From the NCBI RefSeq assembly GCF_013402875.1, contig NZ_CP058579.1, positions 806,001 to 870,000 on the forward strand: DNA of 64,000 nt, read 5' to 3'. Made by a program: the position numbers and the translations under genes. The DNA is from Halorarum salinum. GTDB lineage: Archaea > Halobacteriota > Halobacteria > Halobacteriales > Haloferacaceae. This document shows positions 10,426-61,366 of this stretch, piece after piece (within the stretch, counting starts at the first letter, position 1; each line of letters starts with the position of its first letter). The notes below the pieces were generated by a model, which did not search any database, was not told where the DNA came from, and saw nothing but the letters and a program-made list of their open reading frames with translations.

Positions 10426-10677
10426 CGCCGCGATCGGGGCCGTCGTCGCGCCGACCGACGCCGCCGACGTCCCTTCCCGACGGTCGTAGTTGCCGTGCTG
10501 CTGAACGTTGAAGGTGCATTCAGTGGCTCGGACCCGTCAGCATCGACGGCGTTCGCCACGACCCGTGCGGATCGGCGAGGGCCGTGTCGACGTCGCGGTT
10601 CAACGAAGCCGATCGAATCCGAGCGCCTCCCGGTCGGCGGAGAAACGGTTTTCCCCTGCCCCTGCGCCGGTGGACGT

Positions 10678-11808
10678 GTGCAGCCGAGTCGTCGGACCGT
10701 GCTCGCCGTGCTCCTGGCGGCGATGCTAGCGCTCACGGCGTTCGTGCTCGCGGGCGTGCTCGCCACCGTCGTGTTCGCCGTGACCGTCGCGTACGTGCTC
10801 TACCCCCTCCGACAGGAACTGCGGGCCCGGGGGTGCTCGGATCGGCTCGCGGCGCTCGCGGCGACTGCCGCGGCGTTCCTCGGCGTCGTCGCGCTCGCGG
10901 CGCCGCTCGGCTTCGTGCTCTACCGGCGCCGCTCGGAGTTCGTCGACTTCCTGCGTTCGGTCCCGCCGGGGATCCCGGTCGAACTCGGCGGGTTCTCCCT
11001 CGTCGTCGAGACGGCGCCGCTGCTCGACGCCGCCGTCGACGCGGTCCGCGCGCTGGCGGCGTCGACGGCCGCCGCCGCGCCGGTGTTCGCGCTCAAACTG
11101 CTCCTGTTCGTCCTGCTCGTCTACGGGCTGTTGTACGCGCCGGGGTCGCCCCGCGCGGCGCTGCTCCGGCTCTGTCCCGACGAGTACCACGACGTGCTGT
11201 TCGCGCTCCACCGCCGGACCGCACACACGCTCCGGGCGATCTACGTCCTCCAGGCGGCCACGGCGCTCGGGACGTTCGTCGTCGCGTTCGTCCTCTTCTG
11301 GCTGCTCGGCTACGGTTCGCCGTTCGCGCTGGCCGTCGTCGCGGGCGTGCTCCAGTTCGTCCCGGTGCTCGGCCCGAGCGCCGTCGTCGCCGGCCTCGCC
11401 GCGATGGATCTCGTCGCGGGCGAGGCGCTCCGGGCCGCGACGGTGCTCGTCCTCGGCCTCTTCCTCGTCGGCTTCGCCCCCGACGCGATCATCCGTCCCC
11501 GACTGGCCGGCGGCACGACCGACCTCCCGGTGTCGGTGTACTTCGTCGGCTTCGTCGGCGGCCTGCTCACGCTCGGCGCCATCGGCTTCGTGCTCGGCCC
11601 GCTCGTGGTCGCGCTGCTCGCCGAGGTGGTGAGCCTCCTCTCGGAGGGTCCCGTCTCCGAGGGGACCGCACCCTCGAACCGGCCCGCGGGCGAGGCGTCC
11701 GACCCGACGGCGGGCGAGTCGGTCGACGTCCCCCCCGACGGGAGCGCGCCCGGACCCGGGACCCCGCCCTCGGGCGCCGTCGACGTCACGGACTCGACGG
11801 ACGGCTGA
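10678..11808 (+). CDS. AI-2E/PerM family transporter
   Basis: A 376-residue polytopic membrane protein of the AI-2E exporter/PerM permease family. It has an N-terminal hairpin of two membrane helices (residues ~5-40), a third segment near 60-78, and a periplasmic-type loop. Then come five hydrophobic segments with the family's GVLQFVPVLGPSAV and PRLAGGTTDLPV blocks, and GFVLGPLVVALLAEV near the end. GTG 10678 is preferred: acggttttccc sits about 27 bases upstream, and the longer frame to 10495 adds Arg/Ser-rich residues through that promoter. The last ~60 residues are a Pro/Ser/Glu-rich tail. Substrate unknown; members range from Na+/H+ antiporters to signal exporters. Confidence 0.82.
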   Translation: MQPSRRTVLAVLLAAMLALTAFVLAGVLATVVFAVTVAYVLYPLRQELRARGCSDRLAALAATAAAFLGVVALAAPLGFVLYRRRSEFVDFLRSVPPGIPVELGGFSLVVETAPLLDAAVDAVRALAASTAAAAPVFALKLLLFVLLVYGLLYAPGSPRAALLRLCPDEYHDVLFALHRRTAHTLRAIYVLQAATALGTFVVAFVLFWLLGYGSPFALAVVAGVLQFVPVLGPSAVVAGLAAMDLVAGEALRAATVLVLGLFLVGFAPDAIIRPRLAGGTTDLPVSVYFVGFVGGLLTLGAIGFVLGPLVVALLAEVVSLLSEGPVSEGTAPSNRPAGEASDPTAGESVDVPPDGSAPGPGTPPSGAVDVTDSTDG

Positions 11809-51582: not shown

Positions 51583-54500
51583 CTATCGGTCATCGCCACC
51601 ATCGTATGGGATAGTGAAGTAAAAGCACGACCCTTCACCCACCGTCGACTCGACCCAGATGCGGCCGCCGTGCCGCTCGACGATCCGCTCACAGAGCGCG
51701 AGCCCGATCCCCGTTCCCGGGTACTCCTCCCGGGTGTGGAGCCGGTCGAACACGTCGAAGATGCGGTCGGCCTGCACGGGGTCGATGCCGATGCCGTTGT
51801 CAGACACCCGGAACCGCCACGCGCCGTCCCGCCGCTCGGCGTCGACCTCGATCCGGGGCGGCTCCTCGCCACGGTACTTGAGCGCGTTCGAGACCAGGTT
51901 CTGGAACACCTGCTCGAGTTGCTTGTCGTCGGCCGTGACCGTCGGGAGGTCCCCGCGGACGACCTCGGCGTCCTCCTCCTCGATCTTGAGCCGGAGCCCC
52001 CCGAGCACGCGGTCGAACACCGCCCCGCTGTCGGTCGGCTCGAACGGCTCGGCCTTCGTGTCCACCCGCGAGTACGAGAGGAGGTCGTCGATCATCTCCC
52101 GCATCCGCTCGGCCCCGTCGACGGCGTAGTCGATGAACTCGCGGGCGTCGTCGTCGAGTTCGTCCCGGTACCGCCGCTCCAGCAACTGGAGGTAGCTCGA
52201 GACCATCCGCAGCGGCTCCTGCAGGTCGTGGGAGGCGATGTAGGCGAACTGTTCGAGCCGCTCGTTCGACGTCCGCAGTTCCTCCACCGTCTCGTTGAGC
52301 CGCTCCTCGTACTCGGTCCGCTCGATCGCCGTCGTCAGGACGTTCGCCACGCTCCTAACGAAGCTGACCTCGTTGGGGGTGAACTCGCGTCGGTCCGCGT
52401 CGTGGGTGCCGAGCACGCCCCACGGGTCGTCCGGCGGGCCGACGACCGTGCTGATGCCGGCCGAGACGTCGTGGTCGGTCGGCAGCGCAGGGCCGTCGAA
52501 CCGCGACTCGGTCGCGAGGTCCTCGACGACCACCGGCGTCGTCGAGTCCAGCGTGAACCCCGCCTGCGAGTCGGGGTCGACCTCGACGGTCGCCTCGCCG
52601 ACGACCCCCTCCCGCAAGCCGACGCCCGAGCGCACCAGCAGTTCGTCGTCCGCCCGGCGTTCGCAGATCGCCGCACAGTCGGTTCCGAGCGTGTCCGCGA
52701 CCGCCCGGACCGCCTCGTCGAACAGGTCGTCGACGGAGGGGGACCCGAGCGCCCGCTGACCGAACTCCGCGACGACGTCCTGCTGGCGCGCGCGCGTCTC
52801 CAGTTCCCGCTCGTACGCCTTCCGCTCGGTCAGGTCGCGGACGACGCCGACCGAGCCCCGGAACCCGTCCCCGTCCGACGGGAGCACGGTGAACTTGCTC
52901 TCGGCCGGAACCCGCCCGCCGCCGGCGGTCAGCACGTCGGCCTCGAGGGTCGCGCTGCCGCGGCCCCCGCCGGCCAGTTCCCCCGTGAGGTCGGCGACGA
53001 CCGACGAGACCTCCTCCCCCACCGTCAGCGAGCAGTGCTCGCCGGCGAGTTCCGCCTTCGAACGTCCGGCCATCTCCGCGTACGCGTCGTTCACCTCGGC
53101 GAAGCGGAACTCCGAGTCGAGGACGAACACGCCGTCGTCGACGGTGGCGAAGACGGTCTCGTACCGCTCGAGCGCCTGTTCGCGCTCCTTCCGCTCCGTG
53201 ATGTCGACGAGGACGGTCTGTGCGGCCGGCTCCCCGTCGTCGGTGATCGGCAGGCTCGTGACGAGCACGTGCTTCACCGCGCCGTCGGCGGTGACGAGCC
53301 GCGTCTCGTTCGGCCGGACCGGCTCCCGGTCCTCCAGCATCTGCCGGATCCGTCGGGCCGCCTCCTCGCGCTCCTCGGGGTGGATGAACTCGACGGCCGA
53401 CCGCCCGTGCAGTTCCTCGGGGTCGTCCACGCCGGCGAGCTCCGCCGTCGCGGGGTTCGCGAACCCGACGTCGCCGTCCGCGTCGTAGGTCACGATCGGC
53501 ACCGGCGCGACGTCGACGAGCCGGCGGTACCGCTCGCGCTGCTCCTCGATCTCCCGCTCCCGCTCGACCCTGTCGGTGACGTCCCGGACCACGAGCATGC
53601 CGGCGTACGGCTCGTCCTCGGCGTTCCGCACGGGGAGGGTGTACGCCGACAGGTGGCGGCCGCGGTAGTCGACCTCGAACGAGGCGGTCTTCCCCTCGAG
53701 GGCCCCGTGGAAGTGGGGTTCGACCTCGGCGAGGAGGTCGTCCGGGTAGCGGTCCCGGATGGTCGACCCGACGACCTCGTCCGTCTCGATCCCCAGGGCG
53801 TCGACGAGCTCCCCGCCGGCGGCCGTGTACCTGAACTCCTCGTCGAACAGCGCGACGACGCCGTCCGGGAAGTTCTCGGCCAGCGTGCGGTACCGGCGCT
53901 CGCTCTCCTCCAGTTCGCGCTCGTACGCCTTCCGCTCGCTCACGTCGCGGACGACGCCGATGCGGTCGTACTCGTCCCCCTCGTCGGGCAGGTTCGCGAA
54001 GGTGGCCTCCGCCGCCAGCGTCCCGCCGTCGGCGGTGTGGACGTCAGCCTCGAGCCGCATCGTCTCCCGCTCGCCCGAGGGGAGGTTCCCGTACGTCTCC
54101 CGGGCGGCCTCGGCGGTCTCCCGGTCGACGACCTTCGTGACGTCCGCGCCGATCAGCTCCTCCCGGGGGTACCCCGTCATCTCGGCGTACGCCTCGTTGA
54201 CCATCGTGAACTCGCCGTCCGAGTCGACGACGTAGACGCCGTCCTCGACCGTCTCGACGATGGTCCGGTACCGCTCCAGTTCGCGCTCACGTCGCTTCCG
54301 CTCGGTGACGTCCTGGGACATCCCCATCGCGGCGAACACCTCGCCGCCCGCGTCCCTGATGGGGGCCGTGTGGACCACCCACTCCCGGTCGGCGTAGGTC
54401 ACTTCGATCCTGCCGCGTTCGCCCTCGAGCGCGGCACGGTAGGCGGGTTCGATCGCGTCGGCGGTTCCGTCGCCGTACGCCTCCCGGAGCGTCAGCCCCT

Positions 54501-56055
54501 CCATCTCCGCCGACTCGACGTCGCGGTCCTCGAACGCCCTTCCCTCGGCGAGCGTGAGCCGAAGCTCCCCGTCGACCATGACGACCGCCCCGTTCGGGAA
54601 GTTCTCGGCCAGCGTCCGGTAGCGCTGTTCCGACTCGGCCAGCGCCCGCTCGCGTCGCTTCCGCTCGGTGACGTCCTGGAAGTACACCGATAGCCCGGTC
54701 TCCGAGGGGTAGGCGTTGAGCTCGAACCAGCCGTCGAGCGTCTCGAGGAACAGTTCGAAGCTGACCGGCTCCTGGGCGTCCATCGCCCGCCGGTACTGCT
54801 CGCGTATCCGCCCGTCCGCCGCCTCGGGGAACTCGTCCCAGATGGACTCGCCCAGCAACTCGTCCGCGTCGCGCCGGAGCGTCTCCGCGGCCCGATCGTT
54901 GACGTGGGTGAACCGCCACTCCTCGTCGAGCGCGTAGAACGCGTCCGAGATCCGGCCGAGAACCTCGCTCAGTTCGGTCTCGAGCTCCCGCGCGCGCTCC
55001 TTCAATTCGGTGACGTCGTCGCCGGTGCTGACGACCCGTTCGACCTCGCCGTCCCCGTTCGTGAGCGGGACGGCGTTCACCGAGAGCCACCGCCTGGTCC
55101 CGTCCGGCCGCTCGAGCTGCAACACCTCGTCGTACACCGGCTCGCCCGTCTCCAGCACCCGCGCGAACGGGTGCGCCTCGGTCGGCAGCGGCCGCCCGTC
55201 CTCGCCGTAGATCTGTCGGGTGCCCGGCGTGTACGCCTCGCGGTCCTCCCTGCTCGGGATGCCGAGTATCTCGCCGGCCGCGTCGTTGACGAGCGAGGCC
55301 TCCCCGTCCGCGTCGGTGATGATGATGCCGACCTGGCTGGCGTCGAGAACCCTGTCGAGGAGGCCGCGCTCGGCCTCGAGGCTCCGCTCGTACTCGCGGC
55401 GCTGCGTCAGGTCGCGCGTCACCTTCGTGAACCCCCGCAGGGAGCCGTCGTCGTCGTGGACCGCGGTGATGACCACGTCCGCCCGGAACCGGGTGCCGTC
55501 CTTCCGGACGCGCCACCCCTCGTCCTCGACGCGCCCCTCGGCCGCGGCGGTCCGCAGGTTCTCCTCGGGGACGCCCCGCTCGAGGTCCTCCTCGGTGTAG
55601 AAGGCGGAGACGTGTTTGCCGACGACCTCGTCCCCGTCGTACCCCTTGATCCGCGCGGCCCCCTCGTTCCAGCTGGAGACGACGCCGTCGGCGTCGAGCG
55701 TGAAGATGGCGTAGTCCTCGACGGCGCGCACGAACTCCCGGAACTGTTCCGGCGTCGCCCCCTCGCTCCCGCTCCCGGCGGGCACGCCGGCGTCACCCGC
55801 CCGCCCGGCCGCGTCCCGCCGGTCGAGCGCGTCCATCGGGCGCCACCAGACGCGGCTCCGCGCGTCGATCCGCCTGCTCACGAGGGCGCCCCGCTCGGCG
55901 AGTTCCCCCAGCTTCCGGCGTGCGATCTGCCGCGTACAGTCGAGTTCCGCGGCGATCTCGTCGGTCGTCAGCGGCGTGCACGGTCGTTCCAACTGCGCGA
56001 AGACCCCCAGCGCGTCCTCCGGCGCGCCGTTGGAGGCTGGCCCCGGCGTTCCCAT
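51583..56055 (-). CDS. Giant multi-PAS histidine kinase with N-terminal winged helix
   Basis: 1490 residues. Order: winged-helix domain (~18-80; PLTTDEIAAELDCTRQIARRKLGELAERGALVSR), eight PAS domains (~105-1040) joined by ERKRRERE-type linkers, then GAF (~1065-1220). HisKA follows with His1276 (YIASHDLQEPLRM), then a HATPase_c domain (NLVSNALKY, DNGIGI, TGIGLALCERIVERHGG). PAS4/PAS6 share YRTLAENFP(N/D)G and PAS5/PAS8 share GVVRD(V/L)(S/T)ERKAYERELE, so part of the array arose by duplication. No membrane helix: a cytoplasmic sensor. ATG 56055 has a TATA-like gcgtaatagg ~27 bases upstream. Signals unknown. Confidence 0.92.
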   Translation of the reverse strand: MGTPGPASNGAPEDALGVFAQLERPCTPLTTDEIAAELDCTRQIARRKLGELAERGALVSRRIDARSRVWWRPMDALDRRDAAGRAGDAGVPAGSGSEGATPEQFREFVRAVEDYAIFTLDADGVVSSWNEGAARIKGYDGDEVVGKHVSAFYTEEDLERGVPEENLRTAAAEGRVEDEGWRVRKDGTRFRADVVITAVHDDDGSLRGFTKVTRDLTQRREYERSLEAERGLLDRVLDASQVGIIITDADGEASLVNDAAGEILGIPSREDREAYTPGTRQIYGEDGRPLPTEAHPFARVLETGEPVYDEVLQLERPDGTRRWLSVNAVPLTNGDGEVERVVSTGDDVTELKERARELETELSEVLGRISDAFYALDEEWRFTHVNDRAAETLRRDADELLGESIWDEFPEAADGRIREQYRRAMDAQEPVSFELFLETLDGWFELNAYPSETGLSVYFQDVTERKRRERALAESEQRYRTLAENFPNGAVVMVDGELRLTLAEGRAFEDRDVESAEMEGLTLREAYGDGTADAIEPAYRAALEGERGRIEVTYADREWVVHTAPIRDAGGEVFAAMGMSQDVTERKRRERELERYRTIVETVEDGVYVVDSDGEFTMVNEAYAEMTGYPREELIGADVTKVVDRETAEAARETYGNLPSGERETMRLEADVHTADGGTLAAEATFANLPDEGDEYDRIGVVRDVSERKAYERELEESERRYRTLAENFPDGVVALFDEEFRYTAAGGELVDALGIETDEVVGSTIRDRYPDDLLAEVEPHFHGALEGKTASFEVDYRGRHLSAYTLPVRNAEDEPYAGMLVVRDVTDRVEREREIEEQRERYRRLVDVAPVPIVTYDADGDVGFANPATAELAGVDDPEELHGRSAVEFIHPEEREEAARRIRQMLEDREPVRPNETRLVTADGAVKHVLVTSLPITDDGEPAAQTVLVDITERKEREQALERYETVFATVDDGVFVLDSEFRFAEVNDAYAEMAGRSKAELAGEHCSLTVGEEVSSVVADLTGELAGGGRGSATLEADVLTAGGGRVPAESKFTVLPSDGDGFRGSVGVVRDLTERKAYERELETRARQQDVVAEFGQRALGSPSVDDLFDEAVRAVADTLGTDCAAICERRADDELLVRSGVGLREGVVGEATVEVDPDSQAGFTLDSTTPVVVEDLATESRFDGPALPTDHDVSAGISTVVGPPDDPWGVLGTHDADRREFTPNEVSFVRSVANVLTTAIERTEYEERLNETVEELRTSNERLEQFAYIASHDLQEPLRMVSSYLQLLERRYRDELDDDAREFIDYAVDGAERMREMIDDLLSYSRVDTKAEPFEPTDSGAVFDRVLGGLRLKIEEEDAEVVRGDLPTVTADDKQLEQVFQNLVSNALKYRGEEPPRIEVDAERRDGAWRFRVSDNGIGIDPVQADRIFDVFDRLHTREEYPGTGIGLALCERIVERHGGRIWVESTVGEGSCFYFTIPYDGGDDR

Positions 56056-56311: not shown

Positions 56312-57676
56312 ATGGTGTTCGCGAACCCACTCGTTCCGTTCCTGATCGGCGTCGCGGCCGTCGTCCTGCTACTGGTTCGACTGAAGCTCCCGGCGTTCGT
56401 CGGGCTGATCATCGCGGCGATGACGATCGGGGTGTTCACGACCGAGGTGCCGTTCGGCGACGTCCCCGCGGAGGTGGCGTCGTCGTTCGGCGACGTGATG
56501 GTGAGCATCGGGATCCCGATCCTGATGGCGGCGATCATCGGGAAGACGCTGATGGACAGCGGCGCAGCCGAACGCATCGTCAGGGGGTTCCTCTCGCTCA
56601 CCGGACGGGAGCGCTCCGAGTACGCCCTGCTCGGGAGCAGTTACGTGCTATCGATCCCGGTGTTCTTCGACAACGTGTTCTACCTGCTGGCGCCGCTCGG
56701 CCGGTCGATGAAGGCCAGGACGGGCGTGAAACTGTCGCTGTACATCTCGGTGCTGGCGGCCGGCGCGCTCTCGACGCACATGCTCGTCCCGCCGACGCCG
56801 GGTCCGCTGGCGATGGCCGACGAACTGGGCGTCGACCTGGGGATCGCGATCCTCGTCGGCGCGACCCTGGCGCTCCCCTCGTCGGCGCTCGCGGGGATCG
56901 TCTACGGCCGGTTCCTCCACAGCCGGGAGGACTTCCCGCTCAGGGAGGCGATGGGCGCCACCGCCGAGAACCTCCGGAAGAAGGCCGAGGCCGACCTCTC
57001 GGAACTGCCGAGCCTGTTCGAGTCGCTGCTGCCGATCCTGCTCCCCGTCGTCCTCATCGCCTCGAACACGATCGCCGGCACGCTGTACGAGGGCGGCACC
57101 CTGGTCGCGGCGACGTCGTTCCTCGGCGACCCCAACTTCGCGCTGACGGCGGCGGCGCTGACGTCGGCGTACACGTTCTACCGGCTGGAGACGGGCGGCG
57201 ACCTCGACCTGTTCAACACGGAACTGACCGAGGCGATCAAGTCCGGCGGCAACATCATCGCCATCACCGCCGCCGGCGGCACCTTCGGCGCGATGCTCGC
57301 CGCGGCCGGCGTGGGCGAGTACATCGCCGGCGGGCTCGAGAACATGGGGCTCGGCCTCCTCGTCACCGGCTGGCTCATCGCGGCGATCGTCCGCGTCGCG
57401 CAAGGGTCCGGGACCGTCGCGATCCTCACCGGCGCGTCGATCATGGCGCCGCTCGCGAGCGGCCTCACGGTGAACCCGGTGTATCTCATGATGGCCGTCG
57501 GCTTCGGCGGGATGATCGCGCCGTGGTTCAACGACAGCGGCTTCTGGATCATCAGCGAGACGGCCGGCATCACCCCGATGGAGACGTTCAAGACCTACGG
57601 CGCGGTCGCGACGATCATGTCCACCAGCGGGCTGGTGATGGTGCTGATCATGTCGACGCTCCTACCGCTGAACTGA
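56312..57676 (+). CDS. GntP family sugar-acid permease
   Basis: A 454-residue, ~12-helix transporter of the gluconate:H+ symporter family. Family segments: LKLPAFVGLIIAAMTIGV, MAAIIGKTLMDSGAAERI, IPVFFDNVFYLLAPL (the GntP FFDxVFF signature), HMLVPPTPGPLAMADELG, VRVAQGSGTVAILTG and the end GFGGMIAPWFNDSGFWI. ATG 56312 is preferred because a TATA element lies at -27; ATG 56264 would add 16 hydrophilic residues. It ends 63 bases from the LarA-like gene on the opposite strand. It probably imports the acid sugar used by the 57740-61366 operon. Confidence 0.9.
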   Translation: MVFANPLVPFLIGVAAVVLLLVRLKLPAFVGLIIAAMTIGVFTTEVPFGDVPAEVASSFGDVMVSIGIPILMAAIIGKTLMDSGAAERIVRGFLSLTGRERSEYALLGSSYVLSIPVFFDNVFYLLAPLGRSMKARTGVKLSLYISVLAAGALSTHMLVPPTPGPLAMADELGVDLGIAILVGATLALPSSALAGIVYGRFLHSREDFPLREAMGATAENLRKKAEADLSELPSLFESLLPILLPVVLIASNTIAGTLYEGGTLVAATSFLGDPNFALTAAALTSAYTFYRLETGGDLDLFNTELTEAIKSGGNIIAITAAGGTFGAMLAAAGVGEYIAGGLENMGLGLLVTGWLIAAIVRVAQGSGTVAILTGASIMAPLASGLTVNPVYLMMAVGFGGMIAPWFNDSGFWIISETAGITPMETFKTYGAVATIMSTSGLVMVLIMSTLLPLN

Positions 57677-57739
57677 GTCGGCGCCGTCGACGGAACCCCG
57701 TCCGTCGTACGCGGTCGGCGGCCCTCCCTGGCGGGCCTC

Positions 57740-59056
57740 TCAGTGTTCCCCGTCGGTCAGGTCGCCGTCCTCGAAGGAGAGGCGACGCGGCTCACCGAGC
57801 GTCACGCCCTCCCGTACTTCGAGCTCCGGGACCAGCGGCTCCGACACGAGGAGCCGTCCCGGCTCCATCGTGTTCGGGATGCGCGCGATCCGCAGCTCCC
57901 CGGGGTCGGGGGTTCCCGTGACGGAGGGCGCCAGCAGCAGCGCGCTGGCGTCGTCGGGGACGACGAGGGGGATCCTCGCCCGGTCGGTCTCCCCGCTCGT
58001 CGCGACGTTGACGTACGTGTCGCCCAGGTCGAGGTCGGCGACCAGGTCGGCGTGCACCACGTCCGCCAGCCCGATCCCGAGGCCGTTCCCGTGGGAGGGC
58101 GGCGTGAGCGACCGGACGTAGATCCGCGTGTAGTCCGGGCGGTCGGGCTCGGGCTCCCCCCGGAAGCACGTCCGCCCGATGACGTTGGTGTCCATGCCGG
58201 TTCCGCTCACCTCCTTCCCCATCTCGTCGACGATCAGCAGGTCCAGGTCGTCGACCGGCAGCGTCGGCAACTCGCCGTAGGCCCGCTCCAGCAGCTCGGG
58301 CTCGCGGTCGAGTATCCCGTCGACCGGGACGCCCTCGACGTGTGTCGCCCGGTCGGTCGCGTCCTCGATCAGGGCGATCCCGCCCACGACCGGCAGTTCC
58401 TCGAACAGGATCCGGGCGCGTCCGCGGATCTCCGCGCCCATGTCGCCCCGCAGCGCCGCGTTGTGCATCATCTCGGCCCCGCGGTGTTTCCCCATGCCGA
58501 TGACCGCCATCTTGCAGAGGCCGGACTCGATCCGGTCCGAGAAGTCCGTGTGGGGCTTGATCCGGTTGGCCAGGAGGACCGCGTCCGCCTCGGCGGCGTT
58601 CCGGTCGGCGTACACGGGGTCCCCGTCGTACTCGCCCGCCTCCACGACCTCCATCGACGACCGCACCGGGCAGCCGAGCGACTCCTCGGTCATCCCGAGG
58701 TCCGCGAGCACCCGGCGCTGGCCCTCCGCGGTCGCGCCGCCGTGGCTCCCCATCGACGGGAAGACGAACGGCTCACAGCCCGCCTCCTGCAGCCGCTCGA
58801 TCGCCCCCTCGATCATCGCGGGGAAGTCGTGGATGCCGCGGCTCCCGGCGGTCACGGCGACGGTCGCGCCGTCCCGAAGCCCCTCCGCCGCGAGCAGGTC
58901 GGCGGCCGCGTCCCGTCCCGCCGCGCGCACGTCGGGGACGGGGTCCGTCTCCCACTCGACCGCCGCCGGCACGAACCGGGGCAGGTCGGCGACGGTCGCG
59001 TCGTTGACCGTCGCCAGGCGCTCGGCGTCCGGGACGTCGAAGGGGAGCCCGGTCAC
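57740..59056 (-). CDS. LarA-like (DUF2088) nickel-pincer racemase/epimerase homologue
   Basis: A 438-residue protein of the lactate racemase superfamily. Residues matching those that bind the nickel-pincer nucleotide in Lactobacillus LarA are all visible: Arg73 (GSRG), His105 (SHGG), His169 (IKPHTDF), Lys182 (GLCKMAV, covalent anchor) and His198 (EMMHN); reference positions there are 75, 108, 174, 184, 200. The superfamily also includes malate, hydroxyglutarate and gluconate epimerases. Its start overlaps the PdxA2 stop by four bases, so a C4 acid-sugar 2-epimerase role is likely but inferred. lactate racemization is the alternative. Cofactor genes larB/C/E are not in the window. Confidence 0.8.
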   Translation of the reverse strand: MTGLPFDVPDAERLATVNDATVADLPRFVPAAVEWETDPVPDVRAAGRDAAADLLAAEGLRDGATVAVTAGSRGIHDFPAMIEGAIERLQEAGCEPFVFPSMGSHGGATAEGQRRVLADLGMTEESLGCPVRSSMEVVEAGEYDGDPVYADRNAAEADAVLLANRIKPHTDFSDRIESGLCKMAVIGMGKHRGAEMMHNAALRGDMGAEIRGRARILFEELPVVGGIALIEDATDRATHVEGVPVDGILDREPELLERAYGELPTLPVDDLDLLIVDEMGKEVSGTGMDTNVIGRTCFRGEPEPDRPDYTRIYVRSLTPPSHGNGLGIGLADVVHADLVADLDLGDTYVNVATSGETDRARIPLVVPDDASALLLAPSVTGTPDPGELRIARIPNTMEPGRLLVSEPLVPELEVREGVTLGEPRRLSFEDGDLTDGEH

Positions 59057-60057
59057 GGGCCCGCTCCCGTCATCTCGACGGCGACCTCGACCGCGTCGAC
59101 CATGCTGCGCTCGGAGGCGACCCCCTCGCCGGCGATGTCGAAGGCGGTCCCGTGGTCGACGCTCGTCCGGACGATCGGGAGCCCGATCGTCACGTTCACG
59201 CCCGAGACGGCGTCGCCGCCGGCGAACCCGAGCATCTTGATTGGGATGTGGCCCTGATCGTGGTACATCGAGACGACGCAGTCGAACTCGCCGCGGGCCG
59301 CCCGGACGTACACCGTGTCAGGCGACTCCGGGCCGGTCGCGTCGATCCCCTCCCCCCGGGCGCGCTCGACCGCGGGTTCGATCTCCGCGCCGTCCTCGTC
59401 GCCGAGCAGGCCGCCGTCGCTGGCGTGCGGGTTCAACCCGGCGACGCCGACCGACGGCGAGTCGACGCCGAGGTCGCGCAGCGCCGCGTCGGTCAGCCGG
59501 ATCGTCTCCAGCACGGCGTCCTCGGTGACCAGGTCGCAGGCCTCCCGCAGCGGGACGTGCGTGCTCACGTGGGTGACGCGGAGGTCGTCCTCGACGAGCA
59601 TCATGGAGTAACTGTCGGTGTCGGTGTAGTCGGCCAGCATGCCGGTGTGGCCGGCGTACTCGCTGCCGGCGAGCTTCGTCGCCTGCTTGTTGATCGGGGC
59701 GGTCACGATGGCGTCGATCCCGCCGTCCCGCGCGAGTTCGATGGCGCGCTCGACGTACGCGAGGCTCGCGGCGCCGTACTCCTCGCGGACCTCGCCCCGG
59801 ACGAGTTCGTCCACGTTGTCGAGGTCGAGCACCGGCACGCTGTCGGGATCGAACCGCGCCCCCGCGGGGTCGTCGACGCGTTCGACCGAGAGCGACAGCC
59901 CGCAGACGTCGATCGCCGCAGCCAGGACGTCCGCGTCGCCGACGACGACGGGCCGCGCCGCGTCGCGAACCGCCGGATACGCCTTCGCGATCACCTCCGG
60001 ACCGATGCCGCCCGGGTCCCCCATCGTGATGCCGACGAGGGGTGCGTGCTCACTCAT
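59053..60057 (-). CDS. pdxA2: PdxA2-type 4-phosphothreonate/erythronate dehydrogenase
   Basis: A 334-residue NAD- and metal-dependent dehydrogenase of the PdxA family. Motifs: ITMGDPGGIGPEV (residues 10-22), APINKQATKLAG, the metal-binding His in GHTGMLADYT, VAGLNPHASDGG, and SMYHDQGHIPIKM with metal His. RTSVDHGTAFDIAG follows. PdxA2 proteins next to DUF1537 kinases oxidise 4-phospho-D-threonate or -erythronate and release CO2 to give dihydroxyacetone phosphate. Archaea lack the PdxA-dependent vitamin B6 route, so catabolism is the sensible reading. Overlaps the kinase end by eight bases and the LarA-like start by four. Confidence 0.88.
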   Translation of the reverse strand: MSEHAPLVGITMGDPGGIGPEVIAKAYPAVRDAARPVVVGDADVLAAAIDVCGLSLSVERVDDPAGARFDPDSVPVLDLDNVDELVRGEVREEYGAASLAYVERAIELARDGGIDAIVTAPINKQATKLAGSEYAGHTGMLADYTDTDSYSMMLVEDDLRVTHVSTHVPLREACDLVTEDAVLETIRLTDAALRDLGVDSPSVGVAGLNPHASDGGLLGDEDGAEIEPAVERARGEGIDATGPESPDTVYVRAARGEFDCVVSMYHDQGHIPIKMLGFAGGDAVSGVNVTIGLPIVRTSVDHGTAFDIAGEGVASERSMVDAVEVAVEMTGAGP

Positions 60058-61366
60058 CGAACCGACCTACCGCCTCCAGGGAGTTAACGATGGTTTCCCG
60101 CGCCCCGAACCCGCCCGCCTTCGTGACGACCGGCGTCCCGGCGCCGATCCCGTCGACGAGTCGGCCGACGGGGACCCCGGCTCCGACGTCCTCGCCGGTC
60201 AGTTCGACGGTCGTCGCGCCGAGGGACCGGAGCACGGCGACCGCGACGTCCCCGCCCGTGAGCACCAGCCCCGACGGCTCGCCCTCCCGGACGGCGAGCG
60301 CCGCCACGTCCGCGAGCCCGTCGGCCACGCGCTCGCGAACCTCCTCGGTCGGGAGCCCCCGGTCCCGACCGGCCGCGACGGTTCGATCGACGGCCGCACG
60401 GTCGGTCGCGGCGGTCAGGACGGCGGGCCGGCCCGCCCGGAGGGTCTCGACGGCCTCGCTCGCGGTCCCGTCGGGTCCCGTCCCCTCCTCGGCGAGGAGT
60501 TCCGTGGGGTCGAGTTCCACGACGGCCTCGTCGGGAACCGCCTCGAGCTGTGCGAGCGTCGTCGCGTTCACGCTGCCGACGACGCCCAGGGGCGCGCCCG
60601 TCGTCGACTGGCGCGCCGAGCGGTCCCCGCGGGTGCCAGCAGCGGGTTCGTCCGCATCGACCGAGGGAACGGGAACGTCGACGTGTGCCGCCAGCCCGCC
60701 GCTGCCGACGTAGAGCGTCCCCCCCTCGACCGCCCCCCCGGCCGCGGCAACCGTCGCCAGGTGTCCCTCCTCAGTCGCGTCGGGGACGACGATCGGCGCT
60801 CGCTCGCTCCGTTCGACCGCGGTTTCGAGCTCGGCGGCGACGCGCTCCGGCCCGGCCTCGACGGCCTCGAGCGGAACCGTGACGACCGGGCGGTCGAGCC
60901 CCGCGAACGACTCGGGCAGCGACGAGGACGCCGGGCCCTTCTCGTCGTCCCCGTACTCCGTCCCCGCGACCGGCGTGCCCTCGACTCGGTGGACCCCGCC
61001 CTCGGTCGTCCGTGCGGCGGCCGGGAACGCCGGGGCGACCAGCGCGACGGCCGCGCCCGAGGCCGCGAGCGCGGCGTCGACCTCCGCGGCCAAGTTCCCC
61101 CGGAGCGTCGAGTCGACCTTCTTGTAGACGGCGTCGGCTGGAACCGACTCGACGACCCCCCGGACTGCCGCGGCCGCGTCCCCCTCGTCGGCGTACCTGC
61201 TGTCGGTGTTCACCCCGAGCACGGTCGCTTCGGCGCGCTCCGCGCCCGCCGCCCCGTCGGACGACGGGATCGCGACGACCGAGGCGTCGTGGCCGCGGAC
61301 CGCGAACCCGTGTGCGGTGTCCATCGCCCCCGTGAGGTCGTCGGCGACGACGACGGCCGAGTACAT
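60050..61366 (-). CDS. dtnK: Four-carbon acid-sugar kinase (DUF1537; threonate/erythronate kinase)
   Basis: A 438-residue kinase. N-terminal DUF1537 domain: VVVADDLTGAMDTA (7-20), GVNTDSR, and KKVDSTLRGN, the sugar-acid-binding block, at ~84-93. C-terminal nucleotide-binding domain: GVVGSVNATTLAQ and LVLTGGDVAVAVLRSLGA, ending GAGTPVVTKAGGFG. DtnK/DenK-type enzymes phosphorylate D-threonate or D-erythronate at O4. Which stereoisomer is used here cannot be told. ATG 61366 has a TATA-like gcgtttttaccc centred ~25 bases upstream on the minus strand. First gene of the kinase-PdxA2-LarA-like operon. Confidence 0.88.
   Translation of the reverse strand: MYSAVVVADDLTGAMDTAHGFAVRGHDASVVAIPSSDGAAGAERAEATVLGVNTDSRYADEGDAAAAVRGVVESVPADAVYKKVDSTLRGNLAAEVDAALAASGAAVALVAPAFPAAARTTEGGVHRVEGTPVAGTEYGDDEKGPASSSLPESFAGLDRPVVTVPLEAVEAGPERVAAELETAVERSERAPIVVPDATEEGHLATVAAAGGAVEGGTLYVGSGGLAAHVDVPVPSVDADEPAAGTRGDRSARQSTTGAPLGVVGSVNATTLAQLEAVPDEAVVELDPTELLAEEGTGPDGTASEAVETLRAGRPAVLTAATDRAAVDRTVAAGRDRGLPTEEVRERVADGLADVAALAVREGEPSGLVLTGGDVAVAVLRSLGATTVELTGEDVGAGVPVGRLVDGIGAGTPVVTKAGGFGARETIVNSLEAVGRFDE

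Follow-up and report, generated by a model that had tools for sequence, protein, structure and literature searches.

A kinase-PdxA2-LarA gene cluster of Halorarum salinum as a candidate route for four-carbon acid sugars and their C2 epimers

Gene layout and identity of the products

The window analysed here is a 64,000-nucleotide stretch of the Halorarum salinum genome (contig NZ_CP058579.1, positions 806,001 to 870,000), in which three genes with overlapping frames occupy positions 57740-61366 of the reverse strand; their products are a DUF1537 kinase, a dehydrogenase resembling PdxA2, and a protein of the LarA superfamily (Table 1). The kinase and PdxA frames overlap by 8 bases and those of PdxA and LarA by 4 bases, which from the sequence suggests translational coupling; the three genes would be transcribed as a single operon. 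A gene for a GntP-family permease converges on this operon, with 63 bases separating its stop codon from that of the LarA-like gene. A preliminary description had read the locus as a four-carbon (C4) acid-sugar pathway with a nickel-pincer epimerase; its placing of all four open reading frames, their overlaps and convergence, and the identities it gave them agree with our Pfam, NCBIfam, and predicted-fold results. Beyond the GntP gene (51583-56055, reverse strand), the window encodes a 1490-aa histidine kinase in which approximately eight PAS domains and a GAF domain are joined by a weak HTH match at the N terminus.

Table 1. Coordinates (window numbering) and supporting matches of the operon genes and the converging permease gene
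Feature	Position	Strand	Details
DUF1537 four-carbon acid-sugar kinase (first gene of the operon)	60050-61366	-	438 aa; ATG start; Pfam SBD_N and NBD_C
PdxA2-like dehydrogenase (putative 4-phospho-threonate/erythronate dehydrogenase)	59053-60057	-	334 aa; Pfam PdxA, 352 bits
LarA-superfamily nickel-pincer isomerase, group 22 (putative sugar-acid C2-epimerase)	57740-59056	-	438 aa; GTG start; NF052515, 482 bits
GntP-family permease (probable sugar-acid importer)	56312-57676	+	454 aa; Pfam GntP, 325 bits

The kinase carries both halves of its family (SBD_N, 153 bits against a cut-off of 25; NBD_C, 93 bits against 28.3) and matches the solved DUF1537 structures 4xfm and 4xfr. It scores 225 bits against the D-threonate kinase model NF047819, short of the curated cut-off of 450, and 81 bits against the 3-oxo-tetronate kinase model NF043035. 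The dehydrogenase matches the D-threonate 4-phosphate dehydrogenase 6e85 (274 bits) and the PdxA2 protein 2hi1 (270 bits) ahead of Escherichia coli PdxA (1ps6, 169 bits), and by these scores appears nearer the PdxA2 type than E. coli PdxA; its 300 bits against NF002891 (D-threonate 4-phosphate dehydrogenase) do not reach that model's cut-off of 583. Such a pair might instead serve vitamin B6 synthesis, with the kinase phosphorylating 4-hydroxythreonine and PdxA taking the product toward pyridoxal phosphate (PLP), given that DUF1537 kinases can phosphorylate 4-hydroxythreonine and that PdxA2 is capable of the PdxA reaction (PMC7954711, PMC9997740). However, a search of the genome found no PdxJ and did find PdxS, the alternative PLP synthase (334 bits), which together speak against a vitamin B6 role for PdxA. 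As PdxA also occurs in only 44 of the 292 Halobacteria genomes that make up our survey, and the B6 route has no need of a LarA enzyme, we regard a B6 function of the pair as extremely improbable.

The third protein of the operon belongs to the NCBIfam family NF052515, 'nickel pincer cofactor-dependent isomerase, group 22' (482.3 bits against a cut-off of 400). Pfam Lar_N leaves it under the gathering cut-off (14.1 against 23.3 bits), with DUF362 scoring slightly higher, and a genome search with Lar_N overlooked the window gene while matching another group-22 copy. Other group-22 members do pass the Lar_N cut-off, e.g., a Bacillota protein (39 bits) and another copy in the host genome, and the RefSeq label of group-22 members is often 'DUF362 domain-containing protein'; Pfam-based surveys may therefore undercount haloarchaeal LarA. 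Because phmmer and hmmsearch comparisons with solved LarA structures gave nothing significant (and a search of PHROGs no match), the fold was predicted with AlphaFold2 from the window protein and 64 relatives taken from genome contigs. In structure comparison, the resulting model (predicted local distance difference test score, 92.8) retrieved LarA-family proteins in all of its top 12 PDB rows, among them lactate and malate racemases (Z 18.6-20.9), with the next row at 7.2; Foldseek concurred (E 7e-11). Identity to lactate racemase in the structural match is approximately 14%, so that the family is a distant one, and the model predicts a member of the LarA superfamily with its two-domain fold.

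The preliminary description had held that residues equivalent to Arg75, His108, His174, Lys184, and His200 of lactate racemase are kept, and R73, H105, H169, K182, and H198 of the window protein are indeed invariant in 95 of 95 aligned sequences. In an hhalign comparison with a profile of eight canonical LarA sequences from bacterial genomes (Prob 94, E 1.4e-7), R73, H105, and H169 stand opposite R75, H108, and H174. The equivalence of K182 to K184 and of H198 to H200 is less certain: hhalign did not set K182 opposite K184, and the placement comes from a weak HMMER alignment, in which K182 and H198 align with the 9q2u lysine and nickel-binding histidine, and from the spacing of 16 residues between them, as in LarA.

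All three genes for making the cofactor, on which the preliminary description hinged its epimerase, are present on the same contig outside the window: larC (C1:1522798, 423 bits), larE (C1:728137, 294 bits), and larB (C1:586282, 221 bits). Because each exceeds its curated cut-off, the host would be able to make the nickel-pincer nucleotide. The cofactor genes probably serve several enzymes, since the genome has six group-22 LarA copies (including those at C1:863743, 1733611, 1898453, and 3697248; L131-L133), as some other haloarchaea also have several. Among the four host copies examined, only that of the window has both a kinase and a PdxA gene nearby; the other three fetched have neither within approximately 9 kb.

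Linkage and shared divergence of the three genes

Group 22 is present in 129 of the surveyed genomes, and window-type LarA, defined as at least 54% identical, in 31 of them (32 copies). PdxA lies within 5 kb of 20 of the 32 window-type genes, as against 2 of the 118 other listed group-22 genes (Fisher p 1e-14), and is encoded in 30 of the 31 genomes carrying window-type LarA (p 5e-29), although these tests ignore kinship between genomes. Against that neglect of kinship must be set the fact that the gene set stays together while its order varies. DUF1537-PdxA-LarA is the usual order; LarA opposes the other two genes at two loci (L123, L128) and comes first at another (L119), and in Haladaptatus halobius the order is LarA-DUF1537-cupin-PdxA, followed by ATP-binding cassette transporter genes. 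Of the 31 further loci of the clade that were fetched, 9 have an orthologous GntP gene (66-78% identical) adjoining the operon. The coupling of kinase, PdxA, and LarA is thus not merely local, and the conservation across haloarchaea that the preliminary description left to be checked is borne out.

Its portrayal of the pathway as a haloarchaeal one proves too narrow, as Rubrobacter and Bacillaceae have kinase, pdxA, and larA genes grouped as well. In Rubrobacter indicoceani, a plasmid carries kinase-pdxA-larA in the order of the window, and a scan of genome contigs found group-22 LarA accompanied by DUF1537 and PdxA in other Rubrobacter, Oceanobacillus, Domibacillus, Bacillus, Alkalihalobacillus, Fredinandcohnia, Peribacillus, and Neobacillus. 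The same trio appeared in Ruminiclostridium and in bins of Synergistaceae, Bacteroidetes, and Bacillota. A GntP or larE-like gene lies near several of these bacterial clusters, and in Alkalihalobacillus macyae larE, larB, and larC all lie within 6 kb. Across 38 sets, the pairwise distances of kinase, PdxA, and LarA correlate at r 0.92-0.96 (0.84-0.89 among haloarchaea alone, 0.92-0.95 among bacteria alone), with none of 2000 permutations as high as the observed value, as expected of three proteins inherited together. There is no sign of recent transfer between haloarchaea and bacteria, since their sets form two separate groups in the PdxA and kinase trees. The linkage is nonetheless often gained or lost, as its label requires 14 changes on the LarA tree.

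Taken together, group 22 probably comprises several different isomerases of sugar acids and hydroxy acids, because other branches have lactate/glycerate-like or altronate-like neighbours. In Haloarcula, Haloferax, and Halomicrobium, group-22 LarA has DUF4147 glycerate kinase genes, LUD-domain genes, or both as neighbours (L145:6456-12195, L147:3312-8140, L150:3444-7177), which suggests a branch of lactate or glycerate racemases. It could be argued that the window protein, too, racemises lactate or glycerate and is connected with a threonate kinase and dehydrogenase only by lying in one cluster with them: lutABC-like lactate utilisation genes lie directly upstream of kinase-pdxA-larA in R. indicoceani, and the Haloarcula and Haloferax genes just described keep company of the same kind. 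Yet lactate- and glycerate-type neighbours are found mainly at those other haloarchaeal branches, whereas the window branch co-occurs with PdxA in all but one of its genomes and has diverged in step with PdxA and the kinase, making a racemase that is only a bystander to the pathway improbable.

A proposed route for both C2 epimers and its alternatives

We propose, with a probability of roughly 60%, that a C4 acid sugar and its C2 epimer, most likely D-erythronate and D-threonate, are broken down by the products of this operon. GntP would import the acid. The group-22 LarA protein, with nickel-pincer nucleotide supplied by LarB, LarE, and LarC, would invert the C2 hydroxyl by proton-coupled hydride transfer, interconverting D-erythronate (2R,3R) and D-threonate (2S,3R). 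The DUF1537 kinase would then phosphorylate O4 of whichever epimer it accepts, and the PdxA2-like enzyme would oxidise C3, with loss of CO2 leaving dihydroxyacetone phosphate (DHAP). D-threonate and D-erythronate differ at C2 alone, a centre that vanishes upon C3 oxidation and CO2 loss; the epimerase would thus allow one kinase/dehydrogenase pair to use both. The last two steps are modelled on bacteria, in which D-threonate kinase and 4-phospho-D-threonate dehydrogenase lead to DHAP (Zhang et al. 2016, as cited in PMC10079672), and to the extent of that citing account the preliminary description was right to take kinase plus PdxA2 as the bacterial route to this product. Characterised LarA homologues in the literature consulted for comparison invert C2 of a 2-hydroxy acid, and some C2-epimerise 4-deoxy-threonate/erythronate (PMC11770544). 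An epimerase feeding the kinase, as the preliminary description had it, remains the best explanation of the genomic linkage; the C4 substrate and the direction of the reaction we infer from chemistry and context.

The LarA homologue could alternatively epimerise the phosphorylated acid (4-phospho-erythronate/4-phospho-threonate) after the kinase has acted. The C2 chemistry would be equivalent, the gene order kinase-PdxA-LarA leaves the order of steps unfixed, and a phosphorylated ligand has been modelled, speculatively, in a different LarA group (PMC12611868). The substrates of characterised LarA homologues in the literature consulted are, however, free acids, and we consider epimerisation after phosphorylation to have little chance of being correct.

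A number of observations weigh against the C4 epimerase proposal, in addition to the kinship left out of the Fisher tests and the failure of kinase and PdxA to reach the cut-offs of their specific models. (i) For 12 of the 32 window-type LarA genes, the two nearest relatives of the window gene (L071, L072) among them, no PdxA lies within 5 kb; in one such genome (G265) the kinase still adjoins LarA, and in another (G188) PdxA lies 19 kb off. (ii) The gap from H169 to K182 is 13 residues, versus 10 in LarA. (iii) The ribose-binding Asp72, which is present in canonical LarA and is not defining for the superfamily as a whole, has no counterpart, there being no Asp at positions 67-72 in the 95 sequences. 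(iv) No group-22 enzyme with a reported activity was found in the literature consulted, and gene context is not always a guide to activity, as Desguin 2020 (PMC7583248) warned. (v) Some window-type LarA genes adjoin genes for MR/MLE dehydratases or DHDPS-type aldolases (L118, L120) or for an aldehyde dehydrogenase (L101), and the L102 operon contains a DHDPS-family aldolase gene (10617-11504) between LarA and GntP, a position at which four other loci (L104, L105, L108, L116) have an unannotated gap of equal size.

Because of these dehydratase, aldolase, and aldehyde dehydrogenase neighbours, the acid may be longer than C4 in some or all such loci, or the enzyme may be broad. Carried over to the window, this would mean that a longer acid sugar (pentonate, hexonate, or branched) is degraded, with LarA epimerising its C2 and the kinase and PdxA homologue acting on its derivative. 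Bacterial relatives offer a parallel, in that group-22 LarA of Loktanella, Sporomusa, and Pseudosulfitobacter (L146, L148, L149) adjoins genes of the altronate dehydratase (UxaA) family, and the LarA homologues GntE1 and GntE2 are D-gluconate 2-epimerases (PMC7583248). Nevertheless, the window kinase and PdxA match D-threonate enzymes best, and within the window the operon has no recognised neighbour encoding a dehydratase or aldolase; we therefore hold a longer substrate there to be unlikely, albeit deserving of consideration. The UxaA-linked bacterial proteins are themselves possibly hexonate or pentonate epimerases. A larC gene lies near the UxaA-linked LarA in Loktanella and Pseudosulfitobacter, and Loktanella additionally has larB and a larE-like gene there.

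Returning to the C4 epimerase proposal, its fullest form is one to which we give even odds: a tetronate C2-epimerase of LarA group 22, with a new substrate class, would, in haloarchaea and in several bacterial phyla alike, combine with a DUF1537 kinase and PdxA2 to give both C2 epimers a redox-neutral entry, and would provide the nickel-pincer cofactor with a physiological role in haloarchaea. In Haloferax volcanii, relatives of larB, larC, and larE have been recorded with no user known for them (PMC8305020). The proposal thus provides a testable role for the cofactor in these organisms as well as a substrate hypothesis for group 22, a large LarA group to which no substrate has been assigned. 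If true, it would add a further way of handling the C2 stereochemistry of C4 acid sugars, besides the routes of oxidation and isomerisation.

Relation to known systems

We know of no LarA-type epimerase in the D-threonate pathway of bacteria. The parts of the proposed route are known families, and their combination appears undescribed in the literature searched, where we found no description of a kinase-PdxA-LarA pathway; the supplementary context tables of Desguin 2020 lay outside that search and may hold an earlier record of the group-22 link.

As presented in PMC10079672, which cites Zhang et al. 2016, the bacterial D-threonate pathway resembles the window in its kinase family, its PdxA2-type dehydrogenase, its neighbouring genes, and a sugar-acid permease nearby. 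It differs in that the window kinase and PdxA are archaeal and fall below the specific model cut-offs. The D-erythronate and L-threonate pathways (LtnD or DenD, OtnI, OtnK, and OtnC; Zhang et al. 2016, via PMC12540250 and PMC10580937) have, in the accounts given there, a DUF1537 kinase and a DHAP product in common with the window. According to the same accounts they deal with stereochemistry at C2 through NAD-dependent oxidation and isomerisation, and no gene for such steps was recognised in the window operon.

Among LarA relatives, the D-gluconate 2-epimerases GntE1 and GntE2 (LarAH19 and LarAH20; PMC7583248) are likewise nickel-pincer sugar-acid C2-epimerases of the LarA superfamily, but they belong to other LarA groups and act on a hexonate, whereas group 22, with the window protein, is very remote from canonical LarA in sequence. 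NF052515 takes in the window protein under a family name that carries no substrate and with a definition that leaves the kinase/PdxA link outside. LarA(Bw) and LarA(Sp), of the His-to-Asn subfamily (PMC12611868), are similarly diverged and carbohydrate-linked and share the predicted fold of the window protein (9q3k, Z 20.1); there, however, the second catalytic histidine has become Asn, whereas group 22 retains both histidines.

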